This document shows positions 9,857 through 24,573 of a stretch of DNA of 42,191 nt, in pieces (the stretch's first letter is position 1; each line of letters starts with the position of its first letter). The notes beneath the pieces were generated by a model. It had not been told where the DNA came from. It was given only the letters and a program-made list of their open reading frames with translations, and ran no database searches. Location of the stretch: positions 1 to 42,191 of the forward strand of contig JACPTK010000039.1 of NCBI GenBank assembly GCA_016192825.1, read 5' to 3'. Origin of the DNA: Betaproteobacteria bacterium (GTDB lineage: Bacteria; Pseudomonadota; Gammaproteobacteria; Burkholderiales; SG8-41). A program made the position numbers and the translations under genes.

Positions 9857-12007
9857 TCACTTGACGCGCATGCCGGGCTCGGCGCCGGAATCCGGGCTGA
9901 GGAGGAACAGCCCCGGGCCGTCGCCGCTCGCGGCGAGCACCATGCCCTCGGAGACCCCGAACTTCATCTTGCGCGGCGCGAGATTCGCGACCACGACCGT
10001 CAGGCGGCCATTGAGCTTCCCGGGATCATAGGCGGTCTTGATGCCCGCGAACACCGTTTTCGTTACGCCGCCGACGTCGAGCGTCAGCTTGAGGAGTTTG
10101 TCCGCGCCCTCCACCTGCTCCGCGTTGACGATTCGCGCGATGCGCAGGTCCACCTTGTTGAAATCGTCAATCGTCAGGAGCGTGCTTGCGCTCGAACTTT
10201 TCCCTTCGCCCCCAGGGGCAGGGGGAAGGGGCGAGGGTGGGGCTTGCGTGCTCACGGGGCCCTCCGTTTTCTTCGTGACGTGCGCCTGGTGCTCGGCGTG
10301 ACGCTGTTGCGAGTGGGGCGGCGGCACCGGCTGCAGGCTTTCTTTGTTGGCCTCGACCAAAGCGGCGATCTGCTTCGCATCGACGCGGGTCATGAGGTGC
10401 TTGTACGGACCTATCCGTTTTGGAATGGTGTTCAAATCGTCCCAAACAAAGTCGCGTTTCATGCCAAAAAGATCTCGCGCAACCCTTGCGGCAAGGTTGG
10501 GCAGGATTGGGGCCAGCAGGATGCTCATGACGTAGAACCCATGAATTGCACGCGAACAGATCTCATGCAGCTCTTTGGCCCGCGCAGGGTCTTTCGCTAG
10601 CTCCCAAGGTCTAGCGCCATCAAACGCCTTGTTGATCCGGTCGGCCAATTCCATGACATGGCGAATGCCCTTGCCGAACGCTCTCGGGTCATAGGATTCG
10701 CTTCCAACCAAAACACCTTCCGTACGTGCGCCCTCAATCAACGGGTCGCTCGATTGTCGCGCCGCGGCAACGTCAATTGCCCCCTGAAAATGGTCCGTCA
10801 AGAAACGGGCTGCGCGGCTGGCGATGTTGACGTATTTCCCAACGAGATCGCTGTTGACCCGCGCGACGAAATCATCAAGGCGAAGGTCGATGTCCTCCAT
10901 CGTGGGCCCCAGCTTGGTAGCGTAGTAGTAGCGCAGCCACTCGGGGTTGAGCCCCTGCTTCAGATAGCTCTCGGCGGTGATGAAGGTGCCGCGCGACTTG
11001 GACATCTTCTCGCCGTTGACGGTGAGAAAGCCGTGGGCATGGATATGGGTGGGAGTCCGGAAGCCCGCCCGCTCCAGCATTGCCGGCCAGAAGAGGGCAT
11101 GGAAGTAGAGAATGTCCTTGCCGATGAAATGGATCATCTCGGTGCCGGCGTCCCTGCTCTTCACGGCGTCGGTGAATTCGGCGAAATCGATGTTATTCCG
11201 CGCGCAGAGGTTCCTGAAGCTGGCGAAGTAGCCAATCGGCGCGTCGAGCCAGACGTAGAAGTACTTGCCGGGGGCGCCGGGGATCTCGAAACCGAAGTAG
11301 GGCGCGTCGCGCGAGATGTCCCAGTCGGCCAGACCGGCCTTGAACCATTCGTCGAGCTTGTTCGCGGCCTCCGGCTGAAGGGTGCCCACGCCGCGGGTCC
11401 ACCGCTTGAGGAAATCGGTGGAATTGCCGAGCTTGAAGAAGAAGTGCTCCGATTGCTTCTTGACCGGCTTGGCGCCCGAGATCGCCGAGTAGGGGTTCTT
11501 CAGGTCGGTCGGCGCGTAGGTCGCGCCGCAGGCCTCGCACGCGTCGCCGTACTGGTCGCGGGCGCCGCACTTCGGGCACTCGCCCTTGATGAATCGGTCC
11601 GGCAGGAACAGGTTCCTGACCGGGTCGAAATACTGCTCGATCGGCCGCCGCTCGATCATTCCGGCGCCGTCGAGCTTGCGGTAAAACTCGTAGGCGAGCT
11701 CGCGGTTCTCCGGCGAATGGGTCGAGTAGTAGTTGTCGAACTCGACGTGGAAGCCCGCGAAGTCGCGCTTGTGCTCCTCGTGCACGCGCGCGATCAAGGC
11801 TTCCGGCGTGACGCCGTCCTGCTCGGCGCGCAGCATGATGGGCGTGCCGTGCGTGTCGTCCGCGCAGCAGTAATGCACCTCGTGGCCCTGCATCCGCTGG
11901 AAGCGCACCCAGATGTCGGTCTGGATGTACTCCACCAGGTGGCCGAGGTGGATCGCCCCGTTGGCGTACGGCAGGGCGGAGGTCAGGAAAATGCGGCGTT
12001 TGCCCAT
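9857..12007 (-). CDS. metG: methionyl-tRNA synthetase
   Basis: A 716-residue MetRS charging tRNA-Met with methionine. The class I signature is HLGH (20-23) and KMSKS is at 334-338. The zinc knuckle uses Cys144, 147, 157 and 160. The anticodon-binding helical domain follows, and an EMAP-II/Arc1p-like C-terminal tRNA-binding/dimerisation domain starts at about 611 ([14 protein letters not shown]). The ATG giving [17 protein letters not shown] matches the family; an ATG 30 bp upstream would add ten residues. The linker at 560-610 is unusual: residues 591-603 ([13 protein letters not shown]) are encoded by a C/G-rich palindromic element of intergenic-repeat type, inserted in frame. Divergently transcribed from apbC. 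Confidence 0.97.
10197..10242. repeat. GC-rich palindromic element inside metG
   Basis: Within the metG linker the plus strand has a C-rich run followed by CCCAGGGGCAGGGGGAAGGGG and a partially self-complementary flank (CTTCGCCCC...GGGGCGA). This composition is typical of repetitive extragenic palindromes that normally lie between genes. Here it is translated as a Pro/Gly-rich stretch without breaking the frame. Confidence 0.5.
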
Positions 12008-12236
12008 TGATTGCAGGCACTTAAAAGGAGGGTGCATTGTAACAAAGGGCTCCCGCGTCCCCTGCGCGCGCACGCGGCGTGGAAAAACCGCGTGGATGTA
12101 GTGGAGATGACGCGCGCGCCGATAGGCGCACCGCCCGCAATTGTTTAGAATCGCGCCCTACAAGGAGTTTGTCGCGCTGTGCGCCGACAGACTCCTGATT
12201 CGAGACTGCCGGCGGAGACATTTACGGATAGGAAAT

Positions 12237-13325
12237 ATGGCCATCACAGAGCAGCAGGTTCAGGACGCGCTCAGGAAACTGGTCGATCCCAATACCCGGA
12301 AGGATTTCGTCTCCACCAAGTCGGCGCGCAACATGAGGGTGGACGGCGACAAGGTGTCGGTGGAAATCCTGCTGGGCTATCCCGCGAAGAGCCAGCTCGG
12401 GCCGATCCGCGAGCAGGTGACGAAGGCCCTCAAGGCGATCCCGGGCATCGGCGCCGTCAACGTCGACGCGCAGATGAAGATCGTCTCGCACGCGGTGCAG
12501 CGGGGCGTGAAGCTCGTGCCCAGCATCAAGAACATCATCGCGGTGGCTTCCGGCAAGGGCGGCGTCGGCAAGAGCACGGTGGCGGTGAACCTTGCGCTCG
12601 CGCTCGCCGCCGAGGGCGCGTCGGTCGGGGTGCTGGACGCCGACATCTACGGCCCCTCGCAGCCCACCATGCTCGGCATCCGCGGCCGCCCGGAATCGCG
12701 CGACGGCAAGTCCCTGGAGCCGATGGAGGGCCACGGCGTGCAGGCCATGTCCATCGGCTTTCTGATCGACCTGGAGACCCCCATGGTCTGGCGCGGCCCG
12801 ATGGTGACCCAGGCGCTGGAGCAGCTGCTCAACGAGACCAAGTGGCGGGAGGTGGATTACCTGGTGGTGGACCTGCCGCCAGGAACGGGCGACATTCAGC
12901 TGACGCTTGCCCAGCGCGTTCCGGTCACCGGCGCAATCATCGTCACCACGCCGCAGGACATCGCCCTGATGGATGCCCGCAAGGGGCTCAAGATGTTCGA
13001 GAAGGTGGGCATCCCCATCCTCGGCATCGTCGAGAACATGAGCACACACGTCTGTTCGAAGTGCGGCCACGAGGAGCACATCTTCGGAGAAGGGGGCGGG
13101 GAGCGCATGGGCAAGGATTACAACGTCGAGTTGCTGGGCGCGCTGCCGCTCGACATCCACATCCGCGAGCAGGCCGACTCCGGCAAGCCGACGGTGGTCG
13201 CCGACCCCGACGGCCGTGTCTCGCAGACCTACAAGCAAATCGCCCGGCGGGTGGCAGTCATGATCGCCGAGAAGGCGCAGGACCATACGGCGGCGTTTCC
13301 CAAGATCGTCGTTCAAAACACCTGA
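12237..13325 (+). CDS. apbC: iron-sulfur cluster carrier protein ApbC/Mrp
   Basis: A 362-residue P-loop NTPase that carries and transfers [4Fe-4S] clusters. The N-terminal MIP18/DUF59 domain (about 1-85) is followed by the MinD/Mrp ATPase domain with deviant Walker A GKGGVGKS (106-113), VLDADIYGPSQP, and the cluster-binding CxxC at Cys273/Cys276 (CSKCG). I chose the ATG at 12237 because AGGA lies 7 bp upstream and the protein then begins like the family (MAITEQQVQDAL). A longer in-frame TTG start at 12141 is unlikely. Adjacent to and divergent from metG, a common betaproteobacterial arrangement. Confidence 0.95.
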   Translation: MAITEQQVQDALRKLVDPNTRKDFVSTKSARNMRVDGDKVSVEILLGYPAKSQLGPIREQVTKALKAIPGIGAVNVDAQMKIVSHAVQRGVKLVPSIKNIIAVASGKGGVGKSTVAVNLALALAAEGASVGVLDADIYGPSQPTMLGIRGRPESRDGKSLEPMEGHGVQAMSIGFLIDLETPMVWRGPMVTQALEQLLNETKWREVDYLVVDLPPGTGDIQLTLAQRVPVTGAIIVTTPQDIALMDARKGLKMFEKVGIPILGIVENMSTHVCSKCGHEEHIFGEGGGERMGKDYNVELLGALPLDIHIREQADSGKPTVVADPDGRVSQTYKQIARRVAVMIAEKAQDHTAAFPKIVVQNT

Positions 13326-15726: not shown

Positions 15727-16917
15727 ATGGCCGTGCGCCCTGTCGCCTTCAAGAACCCGCAAGCCGCCCCCGAAACCGAGCCGTCCCAACTCTTCGACAC
15801 GCACCCCGAAGTCCGCCTGGACTTCAAGCACGTCCGGAAAGCCCTCAAGCAGGGTTACACCCGGCCCTTCCTGCTGGTGGATACCGGCATCGTCCGCACC
15901 AAGGTCCGCCGTTTCAAGTCCGCCATGCCGCGGGTCAATCCGCATTACGCGGTCAAGGCCAATCCCGATCCCCGGGTGCTCAAGGTCCTGGTCGAGGAGG
16001 GCACGGGCTTCGAGATCGCCTCCATCGCCGAGCTCGATCTCCTGCTCGAGCTGGGGGTGCCGGCCGCCGAGGTCTACTACAGCAATCCGATGAAGTCGCG
16101 CGCCTACATCGAGTATGCCGCGGCAAAGGGCGTGGAATGGTTCGTGCTCGACAGTATCGAGGAGCTGCGCAAGATCCACGGCATCAAGCCCGACGCCAAG
16201 CTCTACGTTCGCATCGAGGCGCCCAACGTGGGCAGCGACTGGCCGCTGTCGGGCAAGTTCGGGATGAAACCGGCCGAGGTGGACGGGATCATCGCGGAAG
16301 CGGCGGCGCTCAAGGCCGACCTGGCCGGGGTGACCTTCCACGTCGGCTCCCAGTGCCGCAACCCGGAGAACTGGCGCGTCGGCATCCAGAGCGCCAAGCG
16401 GGCGTTCAAGAAGATGCGGCTGGCGGGCCTGAAGCCCCGGCTGCTCAACATCGGCGGCGGTTTCCCGGTGCGCCACGTGAAGCCCATTCCCTCGATCGAG
16501 AAGATCGCCGAGGTGGTGAACCACGCGCTGCGCGACGTGCCCCAGAGCGTGCGGGTGATGGCCGAGCCCGGCCGCTTCTTCGTGTCGGACGCGGGCTACT
16601 TCGTGTGCCGCGTGGTCGGCACCGCGACCCGTTCGGGCAAGCGCTGGATGTACTGGGATGCGGGCGTTTTCGGCGGCGTCATCGAGACGACCGAGGGCCT
16701 GCGCTACGACGTTCAGACCGATCGCGCCGGCAAGCTCATTCCGTGGAACGTCGCGGGCCCGACCTGCGACTCGGTGGACGTGTGCATGCGCGACGAGATG
16801 TTCCCGGAGGACCTGCGGGAGGGCGACTTCATCTACATCGCCAACGCGGGCGCCTACACCACAGCCTACGCAAGCAACTTCAACGGCTTTCCGCTGCCTG
16901 AGGTGCGCATCATTTAG
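15727..16917 (+). CDS. PLP-dependent ornithine/lysine/diaminopimelate-type decarboxylase (fold III)
   Basis: A 396-residue alanine-racemase-fold decarboxylase. PLP-binding Lys77 is in HYAVKANP, with HVGSQ (205-209), the phosphate-binding GGGF (243-246), EPGR (280-283) and catalytic Cys347 in GPTCDSVD. The family removes the alpha-carboxyl of ornithine, lysine or diaminopimelate. The length and the DTGIVRTKVRRFKSAMPRVNPHYAVKAN region fit bacterial ornithine/lysine decarboxylases making putrescine or cadaverine rather than LysA. The ATG has AAGGAG upstream. Its own promoter and a short leader ORF precede it. Confidence 0.9.
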   Translation: MAVRPVAFKNPQAAPETEPSQLFDTHPEVRLDFKHVRKALKQGYTRPFLLVDTGIVRTKVRRFKSAMPRVNPHYAVKANPDPRVLKVLVEEGTGFEIASIAELDLLLELGVPAAEVYYSNPMKSRAYIEYAAAKGVEWFVLDSIEELRKIHGIKPDAKLYVRIEAPNVGSDWPLSGKFGMKPAEVDGIIAEAAALKADLAGVTFHVGSQCRNPENWRVGIQSAKRAFKKMRLAGLKPRLLNIGGGFPVRHVKPIPSIEKIAEVVNHALRDVPQSVRVMAEPGRFFVSDAGYFVCRVVGTATRSGKRWMYWDAGVFGGVIETTEGLRYDVQTDRAGKLIPWNVAGPTCDSVDVCMRDEMFPEDLREGDFIYIANAGAYTTAYASNFNGFPLPEVRII

Positions 16918-17413
16918 CGCAATTTCGATTTTCTTGCGCGCGGCGGGAGGGGTGAATCGCAAGGGTGTCCCCGCCTTCGTCCCGGGTCATTGAAACGAGA
17001 TGAATCAAGACGCCAATCCGCGATCTCTTTCTTTCCGTTTTCTGTTGCAAAATTGCAACATTCGAGAAATAAAATGAAGGAATAGTGTCAGGGGATTGAT
17101 TGTTAATGTCTTTTAAGAATACGATTTAAATTGCCCCGGGTTATCGAAGACTTGGCTGGTTGGGCGGGATTTGCGATGGGTTCGGATGGCGCGAGGGCAT
17201 CCGGGTGTTGTGCTGGAGGGGCATCGCGACGGCAGCGACCAGAAGGCAATCGCGGAGAAAATTGAGCTGCGTCAACAATTCCAGCGAGCGCTCAACGATT
17301 GGGCGATTGGACCCGATTTTCCAGCAACAGGGTGATAAAATCGTGCCCTGCGGCACAAGGGAAGATTTCGGAAGAAACCGTCGGCCGGCCCGGTCCGGCC
17401 AGGAGCCAGAATA
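16918..17413 (+). promoter_or_regulatory. intergenic leader of the exporter/FecR-protein operon
   Basis: No gene was recognised here. GCGCAA (16918-16923) and TTGCGC (16934-16939) form a small hairpin after the decarboxylase stop. GTTGCAA-AA-TTGCAAC (17044-17059) is a 16-bp palindrome in an AT-rich patch and a candidate operator. TTGATT (17096) with TACGAT (17120) at 18 bp is a weak promoter candidate. The remaining 280 nt would be an untranslated leader with several short GC hairpins (e.g. GTGCC..GGCAC). AGGAG at 17401-17405 serves the next gene. Confidence 0.35.
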
Positions 17414-18856
17414 ATGCACAAGAAGATTTCCGTACTAGCGCTGTGGATGGTGTTGTTCTTCGGAGCTTTCGGCGCTTTGGCGGCCGAGGCGGACATCAAG
17501 AAAGCGGAAGATCTGATGCGGCAGGGCAAGGCGGCGGAAGCCTATTCGCTGCTGCGGCCGCTCGCCGCCGAGAACGCCGGCAACGTCGACTTCGATTACC
17601 TGCTGGGCATCGCGGCCCTGGACAGCGGCAATCCCAACGAGGCCCTCAACGCGTTGGAGCGCGTGCTTGCCGTCAATCCCGCTCACATGGGCGCGCGGCT
17701 CGACCTGGGGCGCACGTATTATGCGCTCGGTGCTCTCGATCTCGCGAAGCAGGAGTTCGAGCGGGTACGCGCGGCCAATCCGCCTGAAGCCGCGAGTAAC
17801 GTGGTGGCCAAGTACCTCACGGCGATCGAGGAGCGCAGCAAGGAGCAGAAGCGCGCAGTTGCAGGCTATCTCGAGGCGGGCGTTGGCTACGACGACAACA
17901 TCACCAGTGTCACCTCGACCTTCCAGGGCGGGACGCAGCAGGCCTTCGGAGCCGCCTTCAACGCGACCGGAAACGCGATCCGGCGCAAGGCGGGTTTTCT
18001 CAACCTCGGGGGCGGCATCGATTTCACCGCCGCCGTGACCGATACCATCTCGTTTACAGCGGGGTTTGACGCGAGACAGCGCTTTTACGATCCGAAATCG
18101 GCGCCCGTAGAGCCCGCGCCGCGGCCGGCGGCGGGGGACGTTCCGCGGGACAACTCGGCTTACGATTCCCAGACGCTCGATGGGCGGGTGGGGGTGCTGG
18201 CCCGGCTGATGCCCAACTTTCACTTCGGCTTTCATCTCAAGCGGCAGGAGTTCCGCCAGGACGGGGATACCCCGATTACGCCGGGACAGCAGCGTACCAC
18301 GGCGGACCGCAATACCGACGCCGCAGCCTGGGACATGCGTTATTCGTTGACCCCCGAGACGCACGTGGGCGCGTTCTTCCAGTACGCCAATAACCGCTAT
18401 CCGACTCTCGACACGCAGGATACGGACCAGGTTCTCTACGGGCTGAGCTTCCTCCAGACGCTCCAGCGCCAGGGTAACCCGGTGATTTTCGCGAGCGTTT
18501 TCCAGAGCGAGGACTACGCGCTGCGCCCGCAAAATCCTCCGCTCAACACCACGGACGTCAGCAAGAAGATCACGGGGCTGCGGCTCTACGGGCAGTATTC
18601 CGTGATGGAGCACACGGACGTGTCGGCCGGGTTCGGCTACAGCCGGCGCGAGGACCAGACCCGGTTCTCCCGCTCCACCTTGATTCCCTTCGGCGAGGAC
18701 GATACTTATGAATTCGCGCTGGGCGTGAACTGGCGCTTCCGGCCGCTGTGGTCGCTGCGCGGCCAGCTCCAGCACACGAAGAATGAATCGAATCTGTCGT
18801 TGTACTCTTTCAAGCGAACCGAGGCTTCCGTGACGGTGCGCCGCGATTTTAGGTGA
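17414..18856 (+). CDS. TPR-plus-beta-barrel outer membrane protein, Slam/DUF560 (type XI secretion)-like
   Basis: 480 residues. A signal peptide (1-23, cleaved near ALA/AEA) leads to an N-terminal periplasmic TPR part of about 120 residues (AEAYSLLRPLAAENAGNVDFDYLLGIAALDSGNPNEALNALERVLAVNP and the following helices). A C-terminal barrel of about 320 residues begins at GYLEAGVGYDDNI and shows alternating amphipathic strands to the end (ASVTVRRDFR). The order, the length and the GYxDN entry to the barrel fit the surface lipoprotein assembly modulators (DUF560, type XI secretion). These move TbpB-like or other barrel-ended cargo through the outer membrane. The next gene encodes an exported giant with such barrel-like ends, which supports an exporter/cargo pair. 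The match is by architecture, not by a search; another TPR-OMP family remains possible. Confidence 0.65.
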   Translation: MHKKISVLALWMVLFFGAFGALAAEADIKKAEDLMRQGKAAEAYSLLRPLAAENAGNVDFDYLLGIAALDSGNPNEALNALERVLAVNPAHMGARLDLGRTYYALGALDLAKQEFERVRAANPPEAASNVVAKYLTAIEERSKEQKRAVAGYLEAGVGYDDNITSVTSTFQGGTQQAFGAAFNATGNAIRRKAGFLNLGGGIDFTAAVTDTISFTAGFDARQRFYDPKSAPVEPAPRPAAGDVPRDNSAYDSQTLDGRVGVLARLMPNFHFGFHLKRQEFRQDGDTPITPGQQRTTADRNTDAAAWDMRYSLTPETHVGAFFQYANNRYPTLDTQDTDQVLYGLSFLQTLQRQGNPVIFASVFQSEDYALRPQNPPLNTTDVSKKITGLRLYGQYSVMEHTDVSAGFGYSRREDQTRFSRSTLIPFGEDDTYEFALGVNWRFRPLWSLRGQLQHTKNESNLSLYSFKRTEASVTVRRDFR

Positions 18857-18860
18857 GAAA

Positions 18861-19074
18861 AGTCACAGATCAGGAAACCTCCCGGGACTATACTGCAAGC
18901 AAATGCCCGTCGCGCCAGGACGGCGCTGCCAGGTCGGGGGACAGGCGGTTCGAACTGGCTGATGGAAGTCACGGAGCAGGTACTTCGTTGAGACTATACT
19001 TTGACCAAGCGCCCGTAGCGCTGAGCCGGAACTGCCGGTTCGGGAGGCGGGCGGTTCCGGTCTCTTGTTTTGAA
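18861..19074 (+). repeat. tandem ~107-bp duplication between exporter and FecR-protein genes
   Basis: Unit A (18861-18967) and unit B (18968-19074) align end to end: both begin AGTCAC.GA.CAGG, both have ACTATACT at +26 (18887 and 18994), and both continue with GCCCGT.GCGC, CTGCC, TCGGG and GGCGGTTC. The conserved TATACT suggests a duplicated promoter or leader element. Unit B ends in an 11-bp GC stem (19026-19036 with 19050-19060, one G-U pair) just before the Shine-Dalgarno of the giant gene. Confidence 0.6.
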
Positions 19075-19088
19075 TTAGGAGAATGGTT
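19075..19088 (+). promoter_or_regulatory. ribosome binding site fixing the start of the giant FecR protein
   Basis: AGGAG at 19077-19081 is 7 bp from the ATG at 19089 but only 1 bp from the in-frame ATG at 19083. The second ATG is therefore the start, giving MRPVLSVFVRKALS. Confidence 0.65.
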
Positions 19089-22000
19089 ATGAGGCCCGTC
19101 CTGTCCGTGTTCGTTCGCAAGGCCCTTTCCCTGTTGCTGTGTGCCGGCGTGTTCGTCGCAGCCAGTGCGGCGGCCCAGGTCGGCACCGTCCAGTTCGTGG
19201 TGGGCGACGTGAAGATTCGCAACGCGGCGGGCGCGGAGCGGGCCGCCGTGAGGGGCGGGACCGTCAACGAGGGCGACACGATCGTCAGCGGCGCGAACGG
19301 CGAGGCTCAGTTGCGCATGTCGGACGACGCGTTCGTCGCCGTCCGCCGCGACACCCAGCTGCGCATCGACCAGTACAACTACAAGGGCCGCAACGACGGC
19401 ACGGAAAGCGGCGTGCTGAGCCTGGTCAAAGGAACGTTCCGCGCCATCACCGGCTTGATCGTGCGGTCGAACAAGCAGAACTTCGCCATGAAGACGGCGG
19501 TCTCGACGATCGGGATCCGCGGCACGGGTAACATCACCAACCACAATTCCGACACCAACGTCACCATCAACCACACGGTGGACGGCAGCCATTCCGTGAC
19601 CTCCGTCGACCCGAACACCGGCCAGCCCGTCGGCATCACCATCGAGACCAGGCCGGGCGTGACCGTTCAGGTGCGGCCGGGGCAGCCGGCGCAAGTGATT
19701 CCCACGCCGCCCTCCATCCTGGCGGAGGCGTCCAAGGATCCGAAGGCGAAGGGGGAGGAGAAGAAGGAGGAGAAGAAGGAGGCGCGTTCCGACTCTCTCG
19801 CCAAGGCCGAGACCGAAACCCGTGAAACCCAGCCGGAAAAGCCAGCGCAGGAACCGACGCCTGTGGCCACGCCGCCTGCGCCTGCCACTCAGGGCCTGAC
19901 AGTAGCCGTCTCGAGCGAATGCGGCCCCGCTTGCCAGCAGTTGCTGCAGGCCAACCTGCGGACGCAGATCGAGGGCCTCTTCATCCAGGCACAGAATACC
20001 CTTGCTGGCGCCACCGGCAGCGTGACGATGGCGCAGTCTTCGACGACGGCCGCGCAAACCTCGGCGACCAGCGCGCAAACCTCGGCGACGGCCGCGCAAA
20101 CCTCGGCGACCAGCGCGGGGGCGCTGACCGGAGTGGATCTCACAACCCTCGACACCAAGATCGCGTCGGCAGTCTCGCTGCTCGCGTTCGCTCCCCAGAT
20201 TCAGCCGTCGGTGACCGCGGCGCAGACTTCGCGCACGACCGCCTTCAACGCCGCCGGCCTGAGCAATACGTCGTCTTCCCTTGCAGGGGACCAGGCCGCC
20301 GCCCAAGCCGCTGCCACGGCGGCCGGGGCCACCGTCCCAACGGCTCAGACCGCCGTCACGACGGCGCAAAATGCGGTCACGGCGGCGCCGGCTGCGGCCG
20401 CCGCGACCCAGACCGCATTCAATACGGCGAACGCAACCTATCAGGCAGCGCTTGCCGCATTGGATGCAAACGACTTCCTGCTGGCGCAGCAGCTGCTGCA
20501 ACAACTCACGACGGACGTCGCTAACGTTGCCACTGCGGCGGGCCCTGGGGCCACCGCGGCGCAAACCGCGGCCGGCGCGGCGCAAACGGCGGCGACGGCC
20601 GCCAGTTCGGCGGCGTCGAACGCGACGACCGCCGCGAACGAGCTTGCCGACGCGAATACGGCGATCAACACCGCGAATACCAACGTTGCCTCAGGCATCG
20701 CCTCCGCCGATTCGGCCATCAATACGGCGCTCGGCAACATCCAGGCGATCCAGCAGGCGGCGAACACCTCCTCGACCAATGCCGCGGCCTCGGTGACGAC
20801 GATCCAGGGCCTGGTGACGGACGTCAACACGGTCAACACCAATATCGGCGCGATCAGCGCGGTGGACACGGGGCCGGCGACCGCGGCAATCGGCAATGCC
20901 ACGACGGCGATCGGCAATACCTCCAGCGGAGCGACCTTGGCGGTGAACAACGCGAACGCGCTGTCGCTCGCCACGGCCCAGACCACGGCGACCACCAACG
21001 CCACCACCGCCTCCGGGCTCGCGACGACGGCGGGCACGCAGGTGACGAACGCCACGACGGTTCACGATGCCAACGCCAACGTGACCAACGGCGTGGGCGG
21101 CACCGATTTCCGGGACGCCACCGCGATCGGGGCCAAGACGGCGATGGATACCGCCAAGACCGCCCTGGACACCGCCAACACCTCGGTGCAGACGGCCAAG
21201 ACGACGATCGACACCCAGGCGACGGCGCTCACTACCGCGCAGGGGGCGGCCACGACGGCACTGGGCAGCGCAAATACCGCGCTGACCTCCGCGAACACCT
21301 CGTTGGCCACGGCCAACACCCAGAACGGGGTCATAACGACGGCCAAGAACACCGTGACCACCGATCTCGCTACCGTCAACACCCAGCTTGGCATCGCCCA
21401 GACGGCGGCAGGATCTGGCACGACGACGCTGGACCCCGCCCCCACGACCGCCAACAGCACGTTCGCGTCGGGATGCGGATCGGCGCTCGCCTGCTCCGAC
21501 CTGGCGACCCAATACGTGAACACCGCGACTGCTGCGGTGCCGGGATCCCAGGCGCAGGCCGATGCGTCGAACAACGCCTTGACGGCGCAAGGCCGCGCGG
21601 CGACATTCGAGGTGACGGCGGCGCAGGCCGTTACGGCGGCGCAGGCGGCGGCGACCGATGCTTCGGCCCAACTGCCGGTCGCGCAGACCGCCTTCACCAC
21701 CGGCACCACGGCTGCGGGCGACGCGGCGACTGCCGCCGGCACCGGCGCCACGGGCGCGCAGGGCTACGCCACGGTCGCGACGACCCAGGCCGGAAATGCG
21801 ACGACGGCGAGCACCACCGGGGCGACCGCGCTTACCACGTCGAACACGGAGCTGGGCAACGTCCAGACCAACGCGACGTCGGTCGCGCAGCAGTCGATCA
21901 TCGCGCAGTACAACAACCCGACCATCGCCACCGCCAACCGGTTCGCCGGCCTTGCGCTTGCCCCCAACAACCTTGGGACGCCGACCAGCAACGAGGCGGT

Positions 22001-24440
22001 CAGCGCGGCTTCGGACACCCAGCCGAATACGACCTACGTCCTGGACGGAACCAAAAACCTGGTGGAAATTCGGGATACCGCGTACGTCTCCACTCCGGGC
22101 ATTACCGGTCCCTCCGTTTCCTATGCGGACGCCGACGTCAAGTTCGCCGGCGGGACGGCCGCCGATAACTTCGTCGCGTTCGATCCGGCCAATCCGAACT
22201 ACGTGGCATTGGGCCGGTGGCAGGGCGGCACGATCACCGCCGACGACAGCGCGAACGGCGCCGGCGTTGACCATACGGTGACCCTCGGGCCGCGCAGCGC
22301 CCACTGGATCCTCGGCTATACGCCACCGGTGGGCTACGTGCAGGGCCTCACCGGCACGACCACCTACACCAAGCTCGCGAATACCTCGCCGACGGACGCG
22401 AGCGGGAACGTGGGCACCTTGAACAGCGCCACGCTGTCCGCCAATTTCGCCGCTCAAACCGTGAACGCGGGAGTAAACCTTACGGTTGCCAGCAAGACCC
22501 TGGACGCGACGGCGAGCAATCTGCCCATTATGGGTAGCGGCTTCGGCGGGTTCTTCGGGACGGTCAGCTGCACGCCGAGCTGCACGTATTCCGGCAGGCT
22601 GGACGGCACCTTCACGGGCGAGGACTCGTCGGGCGCCGGGTTCGGCTATGGCCTGTGGAGCGGCGCGGGACCGTACACCGACGTGATTCAGGGCGTGGTG
22701 GCGTTTTCCGGACCAGCTCCGGCGATCGCGCCGAAACCGGCCGCGAACTTCGCGACGGCTTACCTGTATGGCGGCAGCAACCTTTCGGCCACGTCGTTCC
22801 AGGCAAGCGGCACGACCTATACCCTGGACGGCAGCGGTAACCTGATCGCGGTCGCGGAGGACCCCCTTCAAACCGACGAGCCGGAGTCTCAGAACGTCAG
22901 CGGCGGGACCGCGCTCGCCCAGGGGACGCCGGTGACTTCCGCCGGCGGAACGACGATCACCTACGGCCGGTGGCAGGGCAGTACGGTGTCGGGCGTGGAT
23001 TTCAACGGGGCGTTCAGCAACCGCGCGATTGATGGGGTCTACCACTGGATGAAGGGTCCGGCGGTCGCGCCGTTCTACCTGGCGGGGGCGCTGACCGGCA
23101 CCGTTTCCTACACCGCACAGGGTGGAGCCGTGACCGACCAGACGGGCGCCGCCGGGACGCTGGACCTGGTGAATTCCACGTTCAGCGCCAACTTCGCGCA
23201 GCAATCGCTGGCGGTGGACGTTCGCGCCACCACGGGCGCGAACACTTGGCGCGGGGTCGGAAGCGGAATAAGCATCGAATCGGGCGGCCAGTTCTTTGCT
23301 TTCACCGGCGGGGGCTCTCCGCATACCAACATGTCCGTGGAGTTCAACGGCTCCACCGTCAACACGTTCGGGGGGATCGACGGCACCTTCATGGGCGCCG
23401 GCGCGGATGCCGTCGGCGTGGGCTTCGCGTTCGGCGAGGGGTCCACCAACCGCGCGGCGGGAACGATCGCTTTCACAGGCGCGGCTCAGAGCCAGACGTC
23501 AAGCACGGTGATCGGCATCGTTGCCCCCGGCTTGCTCGGCGTGCCGCTGACCGGCGCGGGCACGCCCGCCACCGGCACGACGACGCTGGCCTCGCTCGAC
23601 GGGGAGCTCGCGCTCGCGATAGACGCGACCGTCAACGCCAGCTCCCGGGTCGTGCGCGACGTCAACAACAACGTCATCCGGTTCGACGCCGACGTCCCGG
23701 TGGCGCAGCCGACCGGCTGCAGCAGCACCGGCACCGCGTGCACCGGCGTCAGCCATACCCCCGCTGTATTTTCGCTGCGCGATGCCAGCTTTCCGCTGGA
23801 CACGCCGCCGTCCCCGGGCGCGCCAACGGCCGCGACCGTGCTGACCAATACCGGGGCGGACGCGGACACCGGCATCACGTGGGGACGCTACGTCGGCTAC
23901 GTGTCCTATACGGACCGGATCACGGGCACGACGATCAACCCCGCCATTTCCTCGGGCGCGTTCGACGCGCGCACCAGCAACTGGCACGGCATCTGGTCGC
24001 CGAACATGACCTCGCCGCCGGTGCTGCCGACGTCGGGCAGCATCACCTATACCGCGGTGGGCGGCACCAACCCGACCGACAGCCTGGGCAACGTCGGCAC
24101 CTGGAGCACGGGCACGGCGACGCTCAGCGCGAACTTCACGGCCCAGACCGTGAACACCACCGTGAACGCGACCGTCGGGCCGAATGCCTGGGCGGCGAGC
24201 GCGAGCAACCTCCCGATCGTCAACGGCACCTACTTCCAGGCTGCGAAAGGCGGCGGCGCCAATACGCTGAGCGTCACAGTGAACGGCAGCACGACCGGTA
24301 CCGCGGGCCAGGTGATCGGGGTATTCACCGGGAACCACACGACCGGCACGACCGGCGGGGCGATGCTGGGCTATACGCTGAACCAGAACGGCGCCGCCGG
24401 CACGACGATGCAGGGTGTCACGGCCTTCAAGAAGCCGTAG
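19089..24440 (+). CDS. giant exported FecR-domain protein with three C-terminal TbpB-like barrel modules
   Basis: 1783 residues. Signal peptide 1-29 (VAASAAA/QVG); no lipobox. A FecR domain at about 36-146 contains VGDVKIRNAAG, GGTVNEGDTIVSGANGEAQL and KTAVSTIGIRGT. A Lys/Glu-rich linker lies at about 215-265. A stretch of roughly 650 residues made mostly of Ala, Thr, Asn and Ser follows (AQTSAT, NTALTSANTSLATAN), probably a long coiled or stalk region. At the DNA level 20044-20120 holds 21-bp tandem units. From about residue 965 come three modules sharing GRW/GRYxG, an HW box, Y-T, a (TD)xxGxxGTL-like turn, TLSANFxxQ and DGTFxG...GxGxxxG blocks, ending in (QG)V(V/T)AF. This pattern resembles the C-terminal barrels of Slam-dependent cargo. 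Net charge and codon use look like the neighbours. The role is probably surface attachment or binding; the ligand is unknown. Confidence 0.75.
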   Translation: MRPVLSVFVRKALSLLLCAGVFVAASAAAQVGTVQFVVGDVKIRNAAGAERAAVRGGTVNEGDTIVSGANGEAQLRMSDDAFVAVRRDTQLRIDQYNYKGRNDGTESGVLSLVKGTFRAITGLIVRSNKQNFAMKTAVSTIGIRGTGNITNHNSDTNVTINHTVDGSHSVTSVDPNTGQPVGITIETRPGVTVQVRPGQPAQVIPTPPSILAEASKDPKAKGEEKKEEKKEARSDSLAKAETETRETQPEKPAQEPTPVATPPAPATQGLTVAVSSECGPACQQLLQANLRTQIEGLFIQAQNTLAGATGSVTMAQSSTTAAQTSATSAQTSATAAQTSATSAGALTGVDLTTLDTKIASAVSLLAFAPQIQPSVTAAQTSRTTAFNAAGLSNTSSSLAGDQAAAQAAATAAGATVPTAQTAVTTAQNAVTAAPAAAAATQTAFNTANATYQAALAALDANDFLLAQQLLQQLTTDVANVATAAGPGATAAQTAAGAAQTAATAASSAASNATTAANELADANTAINTANTNVASGIASADSAINTALGNIQAIQQAANTSSTNAAASVTTIQGLVTDVNTVNTNIGAISAVDTGPATAAIGNATTAIGNTSSGATLAVNNANALSLATAQTTATTNATTASGLATTAGTQVTNATTVHDANANVTNGVGGTDFRDATAIGAKTAMDTAKTALDTANTSVQTAKTTIDTQATALTTAQGAATTALGSANTALTSANTSLATANTQNGVITTAKNTVTTDLATVNTQLGIAQTAAGSGTTTLDPAPTTANSTFASGCGSALACSDLATQYVNTATAAVPGSQAQADASNNALTAQGRAATFEVTAAQAVTAAQAAATDASAQLPVAQTAFTTGTTAAGDAATAAGTGATGAQGYATVATTQAGNATTASTTGATALTTSNTELGNVQTNATSVAQQSIIAQYNNPTIATANRFAGLALAPNNLGTPTSNEAVSAASDTQPNTTYVLDGTKNLVEIRDTAYVSTPGITGPSVSYADADVKFAGGTAADNFVAFDPANPNYVALGRWQGGTITADDSANGAGVDHTVTLGPRSAHWILGYTPPVGYVQGLTGTTTYTKLANTSPTDASGNVGTLNSATLSANFAAQTVNAGVNLTVASKTLDATASNLPIMGSGFGGFFGTVSCTPSCTYSGRLDGTFTGEDSSGAGFGYGLWSGAGPYTDVIQGVVAFSGPAPAIAPKPAANFATAYLYGGSNLSATSFQASGTTYTLDGSGNLIAVAEDPLQTDEPESQNVSGGTALAQGTPVTSAGGTTITYGRWQGSTVSGVDFNGAFSNRAIDGVYHWMKGPAVAPFYLAGALTGTVSYTAQGGAVTDQTGAAGTLDLVNSTFSANFAQQSLAVDVRATTGANTWRGVGSGISIESGGQFFAFTGGGSPHTNMSVEFNGSTVNTFGGIDGTFMGAGADAVGVGFAFGEGSTNRAAGTIAFTGAAQSQTSSTVIGIVAPGLLGVPLTGAGTPATGTTTLASLDGELALAIDATVNASSRVVRDVNNNVIRFDADVPVAQPTGCSSTGTACTGVSHTPAVFSLRDASFPLDTPPSPGAPTAATVLTNTGADADTGITWGRYVGYVSYTDRITGTTINPAISSGAFDARTSNWHGIWSPNMTSPPVLPTSGSITYTAVGGTNPTDSLGNVGTWSTGTATLSANFTAQTVNTTVNATVGPNAWAASASNLPIVNGTYFQAAKGGGANTLSVTVNGSTTGTAGQVIGVFTGNHTTGTTGGAMLGYTLNQNGAAGTTMQGVTAFKKP

Positions 24441-24546: not shown

Positions 24547-24573
24547 AAAGGCGGCTCATGCCGCCTTTTTTTT
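24547..24573 (+). terminator. Rho-independent terminator after the FecR protein
   Basis: AAAGGCGGC, loop TCAT, GCCGCCTTT, then a run of eight T in total. A near-perfect intrinsic terminator about 105 bp downstream of the stop, closing the exporter/cargo operon. The rest of the 327-bp gap holds only the promoter at 24718. Confidence 0.9.

Follow-up and report, generated by a model that had tools for sequence, protein, structure and literature searches.

The gene pair and its features

We consider two genes on the forward strand of the window (the whole stretch of 42,191 nucleotides that was analysed, from a Betaproteobacteria bacterium). The gene of a TPR-plus-barrel outer-membrane protein, taken here as the exporter, is followed 232 bp further on by the gene of a putative cargo of type 11 secretion (T11SS). 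The features, with the evidence used to place each of them, are the following.

17414..18856, + strand: Slam-like outer-membrane protein of 480 aa, with signal peptide, TPR domain and 14-strand barrel (ORF, Pfam, AlphaFold2 model, profile comparison)
17486..17851, + strand: periplasmic TPR domain, residues about 25-146 (Pfam TPR matches, model helices)
17852..18853, + strand: 14-strand outer-membrane barrel, residues 147-480 (model strands, barrel-only profile match to Slam)
18886..18956, + strand: intergenic repeat, first copy, starting GACTATACT (pattern search)
18992..19061, + strand: intergenic repeat, second copy, also starting GACTATACT (pattern search)
19089..24440, + strand: putative T11SS-type cargo of 1783 aa (ORF, Pfam FecR, module HMM, model, Foldseek)
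19089..19175, + strand: Sec (SPI-type) signal peptide without lipobox (read by eye from the sequence)
19275..19565, + strand: FecR domain, PF04773, residues 63-159 (28.9 bits, cut-off 24)
19989..21908, + strand: Ala/Thr-rich stalk, residues about 301-940 (49% Ala+Thr)
21984..22718, + strand: module 1, residues 966-1210 (module HMM, 238 bits)
22779..23486, + strand: module 2, residues 1231-1466 (module HMM, 168 bits)
23610..24434, + strand: module 3, a C-terminal handle and predicted TbpB-like barrel, proposed as export signal (module HMM, 196 bits; model; Foldseek)
about 24547..24573, + strand: intrinsic terminator closing the unit, stem-loop and T-run (folding)

A common transcription unit, as in the original prediction, is presumed, with the spacing of 232 bp as its weak point; in relatives, 70 of 72 downstream gaps measure less than 70 bp. 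The spacing in the window contains two copies of a repeat of about 70 bp, whose pattern has two matches in the genome, both between the exporter and cargo genes. Together the copies fold better than shuffles (z -2.36), and the repeat (18886-19061) could be a duplicated promoter or attenuator. Rfam returned nothing over thresholds in the window, and chance-level matches only in 16900-19200. At the other end of the presumed unit, the terminator that the original prediction placed after the cargo gene is borne out by a strong stem-loop with a T-run; a 61-nt stretch of this region folds with -34.2 kcal/mol (z -4.66), and the site is not listed by a simple terminator scan. The next operon in the window reads, by eye, like pilus or type II secretion genes.

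The exporter and its relation to Slam

The layout of a Slam/DUF560 protein that the original prediction gave to the 480-residue product agrees with its ORF, its Pfam TPR matches, its 14-strand model and the match of its family profile to Slam. The AlphaFold2 model (mean pLDDT 92.1) has helices up to residue 146 and then 14 long strands, and has the architecture of T11SS outer-membrane proteins, a periplasmic TPR domain of about 140 residues and a barrel. The proposed check against DUF560 (PF04575, the SlipAM family in Pfam) failed for the window protein itself and succeeded for its family. As a single sequence the protein reaches 11.4-12.5 bits, below the SlipAM cut-off of 22; its barrel reaches higher scores with BBP2_2 and OMP_b-brl, without passing the cut-off of either, and the protein gives weak matches to EpsL, BcsC and BBP2_2. 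A SlipAM match at E<=1e-3 is absent from the whole genome of this organism. A PDB sequence search returns mainly TPR proteins, and a tblastn search of plasmids with the exporter returns no match.

To place the family, one genome per species was scanned, which gave 394 stretches encoding a relative of the barrel protein; the best 80 of the 394 were kept (one of them, L119, a metagenome bin under the title Bordetella parapertussis, is omitted from alignment A3). SlipAM is matched at E<=1e-3 by 64 of the 80 members (best 6.8e-13) and, in another member set including the window protein, at E<=1 by 21 of 22 (best 2.8e-16); near-full-length matches over the cut-off occur in four relatives. Profile-profile comparison (hhalign) was made with 15 Pfam-positive Slams whose genomes encode TbpB_B_D proteins as well; 18 had been extracted, and L173, L177 and L184 were dropped (bridge, weak, in-frame stop). 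The exporter family aligns with these Slams over 399 columns that span TPR domain and barrel (E 7.4e-43, probability 100). A profile of the barrel only still aligns with Slam over 287 columns (score 212, E 3e-30), compared with a score of 19 (E 0.088) for reversed Slam as control and of 117 (E 2.5e-15) for a BBP2_2 profile built from 12 of 24 loci. Slam itself aligns with the BBP2_2 profile (E 6.4e-11). Since the BBP2_2 profile aligns both with the exporter barrel and with Slam, barrels in general resemble each other.

Structure alone leaves the exporter undecided, because a Foldseek search of the PDB with the model ranks BcsC first, with TodX, OmpG and FadL-type barrels also among the first, and has no Slam among the 50 matches listed. 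In a tree of 81 rows, made by a quick method with long branches flagged and the placement of a bridge protein unsure, the FecR-linked exporters group together, separate from the 15 Slams (support 100*). Taken at the level of profiles, the exporter family is homologous to Slams.

Two loci connect this family with standard Slam systems. In G157, a protein of 570 residues in which FecR (51.7 bits) and TbpB_B_D (30.3 bits, cut-off 26) are both over the cut-off is encoded directly before a SlipAM gene (57.3 bits). The bridge in G116 is weaker: a FecR protein of 1152 residues has at its C-terminus a TbpB_B_D match that scores 21.6 bits alone, under the cut-off, and 26 with its frame neighbours; downstream of its gene come first a small FecR gene and next a SlipAM gene (86 bits). 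A second gene, with 78 bits for SlipAM, also stands after the pair in L098.

The cargo and its modules

The original prediction of a 1783-residue protein with N-terminal FecR domain, Ala/Thr stalk and C-terminal modules is confirmed by the FecR match, by the composition of the stalk and by one HMM that matches three modules; this HMM was seeded with the three window modules themselves. The turn-and-strand motifs quoted for the modules (TLSANFxxQ, DGTFxG and a GxGxxY-like one) are found there, and the signal peptide, as read from the sequence, lacks a lipobox as had been stated. The FecR match was obtained with the first 288 residues as query; the whole protein as Pfam query gives no match. A PHROGs search gives an unnamed family only, for the FecR part, and Pfam and PDB sequence searches are uninformative for the modules. 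The same genome encodes a second, short FecR-domain protein (G000:C11:60651-61079), which shares 30% identity with the N-terminal part of the cargo.

What fold do the modules have? The original prediction called for a structure of each C-terminal module; module 3 is the one that was modelled, and for it the suggested likeness to TbpB holds in part, with HpuA and TbpB first in the PDB at low TM-scores. The model was predicted from alignment A2, which contains 111 modules (the three of the window and 108 others scoring >110 bits), and has a pLDDT of 79.7, a pTM of 0.80 and nine strand segments listed in its barrel half. The top eight Foldseek matches in the PDB are three chains of HpuA and five of TbpB (E 1.2e-4 to 2.5e-3). 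These eight are two proteins, and because their TM-scores by query length are low (0.29-0.41) and the rmsd is large (8.7-13.7), the fold match rests on local structure. The C-terminal barrel of NHBA follows at rank 22, with a TM-score of 0.62 over NHBA's own length.

By sequence, the window module matches none of the Pfam families, TbpB_B_D included, and TbpB_B_D is matched by only 2 of the 111 modules at E<=1 (best 6.5e-4). With hhalign, the module aligns with 22 TbpB_B_D domains with E 1.1e-4 and a probability of 56%, and its barrel half with E 3.9e-5 and 70% (reversed controls 0.21 and 0.15); the 22 proteins are what is left of 28 without two FecR-bearing bridges and four that were poorly placed. 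Judged from the model, the last module has a predicted fold that is TbpB/HpuA-like.

The very large cargo of the original prediction is a property of the window protein, whereas in the larger family giant size is variable: complete partners of at least 400 residues are 453-2410 residues long and contain one to five module copies. A short cargo with a single module is the 544-aa one of L088 (Sulfuricella sp. T08). Out of 55 such partners, modules are clear in 49 and weaker in five (L091, L098, L119, L123, L128), and L053 has none; the L085 partner is outside the module counts. The stretch from FecR to the first module exceeds 250 residues in 13 of 56 partners by a crude measure. A lipobox pattern occurs in one of 74 partners, where it appears to be a chance occurrence within a normal signal peptide. 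In 48 of the 49 partners with clear modules, no more than 11 residues lie between the end of the last module and the C-terminus.

The last module also differs from the internal ones. In a tree of 104 modules (7 of the 111 were set aside, their proteins being cut by contig ends), 2 label changes suffice to separate the 45 last from the 59 internal modules, compared with a mean of 34 on shuffling (0 of 500 as low); a single clade is not supported. Module 3 has a mean identity of 34% to the last modules of other proteins (n 44) and of 26% to internal ones (n 57). In 33 multi-module loci, the tracking of the exporter is closer for last modules than for first ones (r 0.73 vs 0.58), and in 499 of 528 pairs the last modules are the less divergent. 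The TbpB C-lobe barrel has been supposed to be the export signal (available text of PMC12282271). A role of the last barrel as export signal would predict such a separation of last from internal modules; this is not proof, and the tracking of the exporter is also expected from shared inheritance.

Pairing of the two genes across genomes

In 75 of the best 80 loci a FecR gene adjoins the barrel gene on the same strand (73 downstream and 2 upstream, L085 counted). For three of the five unpaired loci (L093, L094, L105) the contig end is no more than 240 bp away, and the real exceptions are L071 and L104. A first set of relatives had the FecR gene beside the barrel gene in 19 of 20 loci; the remaining one, L035, has module-bearing frames beside the barrel gene (10003-13169, in two reading frames) without a FecR domain. 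As these modules lack the domain, the N-terminal domain of the cargo may be exchangeable. As a control, the same FecR profile matches 25 of 30 short loci, 2 of 30 TbpB_B_D loci (both bridges), 5 of 24 BBP2_2 loci and, with 1.5-kb flanks, 0 of 15 Slam loci. Going by record titles, the 80 loci belong mainly to betaproteobacterial metagenome bins, e.g. Gallionella and Sideroxydans, with three Gammaproteobacteria-titled ones and one Desulfobacterales bin.

The survey of co-occurrence that the original prediction proposed shows a near-obligatory association. Among 300 genomes of the order, some of which may be sources of the search profiles, 64 have the module (E<=1e-5), 91 the exporter (E<=1e-20) and 62 both (Fisher p 5.5e-39, for related and hence not independent genomes); 29 of the 91 exporter-bearing genomes gave no module. 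At least 59 of the 64 module genomes have module and exporter within 12 kb on one strand, a lower bound because the adjacency count used 65 module places and 69 exporter places, while the genome lists are complete. The barrel gene and the FecR gene are a conserved cassette.

The cassette seems to consist of two genes only, because 17 neighbour genes scanned in 16 loci are mixed in kind; none of them encodes a TonB-dependent receptor, the neighbour looked for with T11SS iron-uptake loci in mind. CHASE2-cyclase-like genes lie near the pair in 11 of the 80 loci (e.g. L088:6903-9128; Pfam CHASE2 and cyclase confirmed for L088 only), and the query gene itself sits after the Slam gene of the G157 bridge locus. 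As a fixed part of the cassette this gene was ruled out, being present in those 11 loci only and absent from the window. A TPR and glycosyltransferase family 41 gene directly follows the FecR cargo in two loci (L126:12714-14849 and L131:12683-14854), which suggests possible glycosylation of some cargo. In two others (L082:12959-15334 and L088:12949-15315) a GAF and type II/IV secretion ATPase gene has this position.

Interpretation

We regard it as likely that the pair is a divergent type 11 secretion (Slam/DUF560-family) pair, in which the FecR protein is the non-lipidated cargo of the barrel protein encoded upstream. At the level of the family, this supports the Slam-like exporter and cargo of the original prediction, with export as a proposed step. 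The Sec system would take the 1783-residue protein through the inner membrane, by means of a signal peptide that can be cleaved and is not of the lipid type. In the periplasm, the TPR and 14-strand protein encoded just upstream would recognise the TbpB-like handle-barrel module at the C-terminus of the cargo and then hand the cargo on to the cell surface. An exposed or partly periplasmic working part would be made up of the FecR domain, the stalk and the inner modules, and the giant forms may have arisen by module duplication and stalk insertion. We infer the export step, the recognition through the last module and the surface location, as well as the placement of the FecR domain.

BcsC/EpsL-type exporters carry out polysaccharide. 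The TPR-barrel protein could be such a porin (BcsC/PgaA/EpsL-like) with the FecR protein as a periplasmic or surface accessory instead of a cargo, an idea suggested by BcsC, also TPR plus barrel, as first structural match, by the weak EpsL, BcsC and BBP2_2 matches and by the alignment of the barrel profile to BBP2_2. We consider it unlikely. The barrel profile is closer to Slam than to BBP2_2 by score and by E-value, the C-terminal module of the adjoining protein has Slam cargo as its best structural matches, and the 17 neighbour genes scanned in 16 loci include two glycosyltransferase family 41 genes but no polysaccharide synthase. That the FecR protein, in the periplasm or at the surface, has no relation to the barrel protein and is adjacent by accident might be argued from the FecR matches beside other barrel genes, in the five BBP2_2 control loci; four of these are P0001-family genes and one (L195) is not. 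The pairing in 75 of 80 loci speaks against it, and the survey of 300 genomes makes accidental adjacency very unlikely, to the point that we give it hardly any weight.

There is also a form of the T11SS reading, overlapping with it in probability, in which the modules are exposed at the surface via the pore and the FecR domain stays in the periplasm as a pore plug, an anchor or a sensor that replaces the lipid anchor. FecR domains are usually periplasmic signalling domains, the lipobox is missing from the window protein and, except for one apparently chance pattern, from the 74 partners, and CHASE2-cyclase-like genes occur in 11 of the 80 loci, all of which would suit such an arrangement. Against it are L035, with modules and no FecR domain, and the soluble, released T11SS cargo with SPI signals that is known (available text of PMC8406197). 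We hold this form to be possible, if rather doubtful. A tentative and somewhat more speculative extension is anchoring without lipid, where the FecR domain would hold the N-terminus in the periplasm while the pore displays the barrels; the protein would then be a trans-envelope surface fibre and could signal the presence of ligands.

Returning to the exporter and non-lipidated cargo as the favoured reading, the pair probably serves environmental bacteria to display large proteins on their surface, provided that export takes place as proposed. By this reading, cargo of the T11SS type may be as long as 2400 residues and have no lipid anchor. According to the available text of PMC8406197, nine of ten DUF560 clusters, mostly from water and soil organisms, are without a characterised protein; PMC12282271, as far as its text is available, analyses clusters 1 and 3 and describes few known barrel domains near cluster 3. 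FecR is absent from the available main texts of the T11SS papers PMC12282271, PMC8406197 and PMC5449769, supplements lying outside the search, and the literature matches listed include no paper on FecR together with DUF560. From these literature searches, on which its novelty rests, the FecR-cargo branch of T11SS looks apparently unrecognised, yet widespread. The work gives this environmental branch a defined cargo type (FecR and a C-terminal predicted TbpB-like barrel), and the pair can be used to examine whether the last barrel serves as export signal.

Comparison with known systems

The exporter is like the Slam/DUF560 (PF04575) proteins of T11SS in its N-terminal TPR domain and C-terminal barrel, in the end-to-end profile match, and in that its gene adjoins the gene of a protein ending in a TbpB-like module. 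It differs from them in that its family is a group of its own outside the 15 Slams, is paired with FecR proteins, and has a window member below the Pfam cut-off. BcsC, grouped here with EpsL (BBP2_2), shares periplasmic TPRs and an outer-membrane barrel with the exporter and is first in the Foldseek ranking, whereas the BBP2_2 barrel profile is further than Slam from that of the exporter.

HpuA and TbpB are named as Slam-dependent (available text of PMC5449769), and HrpB/HrpC is a pair that has been co-expressed in laboratory E. coli (PMC8406197). The resemblance of the window-type cargo to TbpB, HpuA and hemophilin-type cargo lies in the C-terminal position and the predicted handle and barrel fold, as suggested by Foldseek. 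The window-type cargo differs in having an N-terminal FecR domain, one to five modules and in some cases a long stalk, and its module sequences are mostly below TbpB_B_D detection. Another giant multi-barrel case is seen in G221:C60:12120-19380, where frames of 972 and 1770 residues have three and four TbpB_B_D barrels. The multi-barrel surface proteins of Sphingomonas and Psychrobacter, as described in the available text of PMC12282271, are similar in placing two to three handle-barrel pairs behind a low-complexity N-terminal stretch, and differ in that this stretch is of Pro-Thr-type repeats and that they more often have lipid signals.
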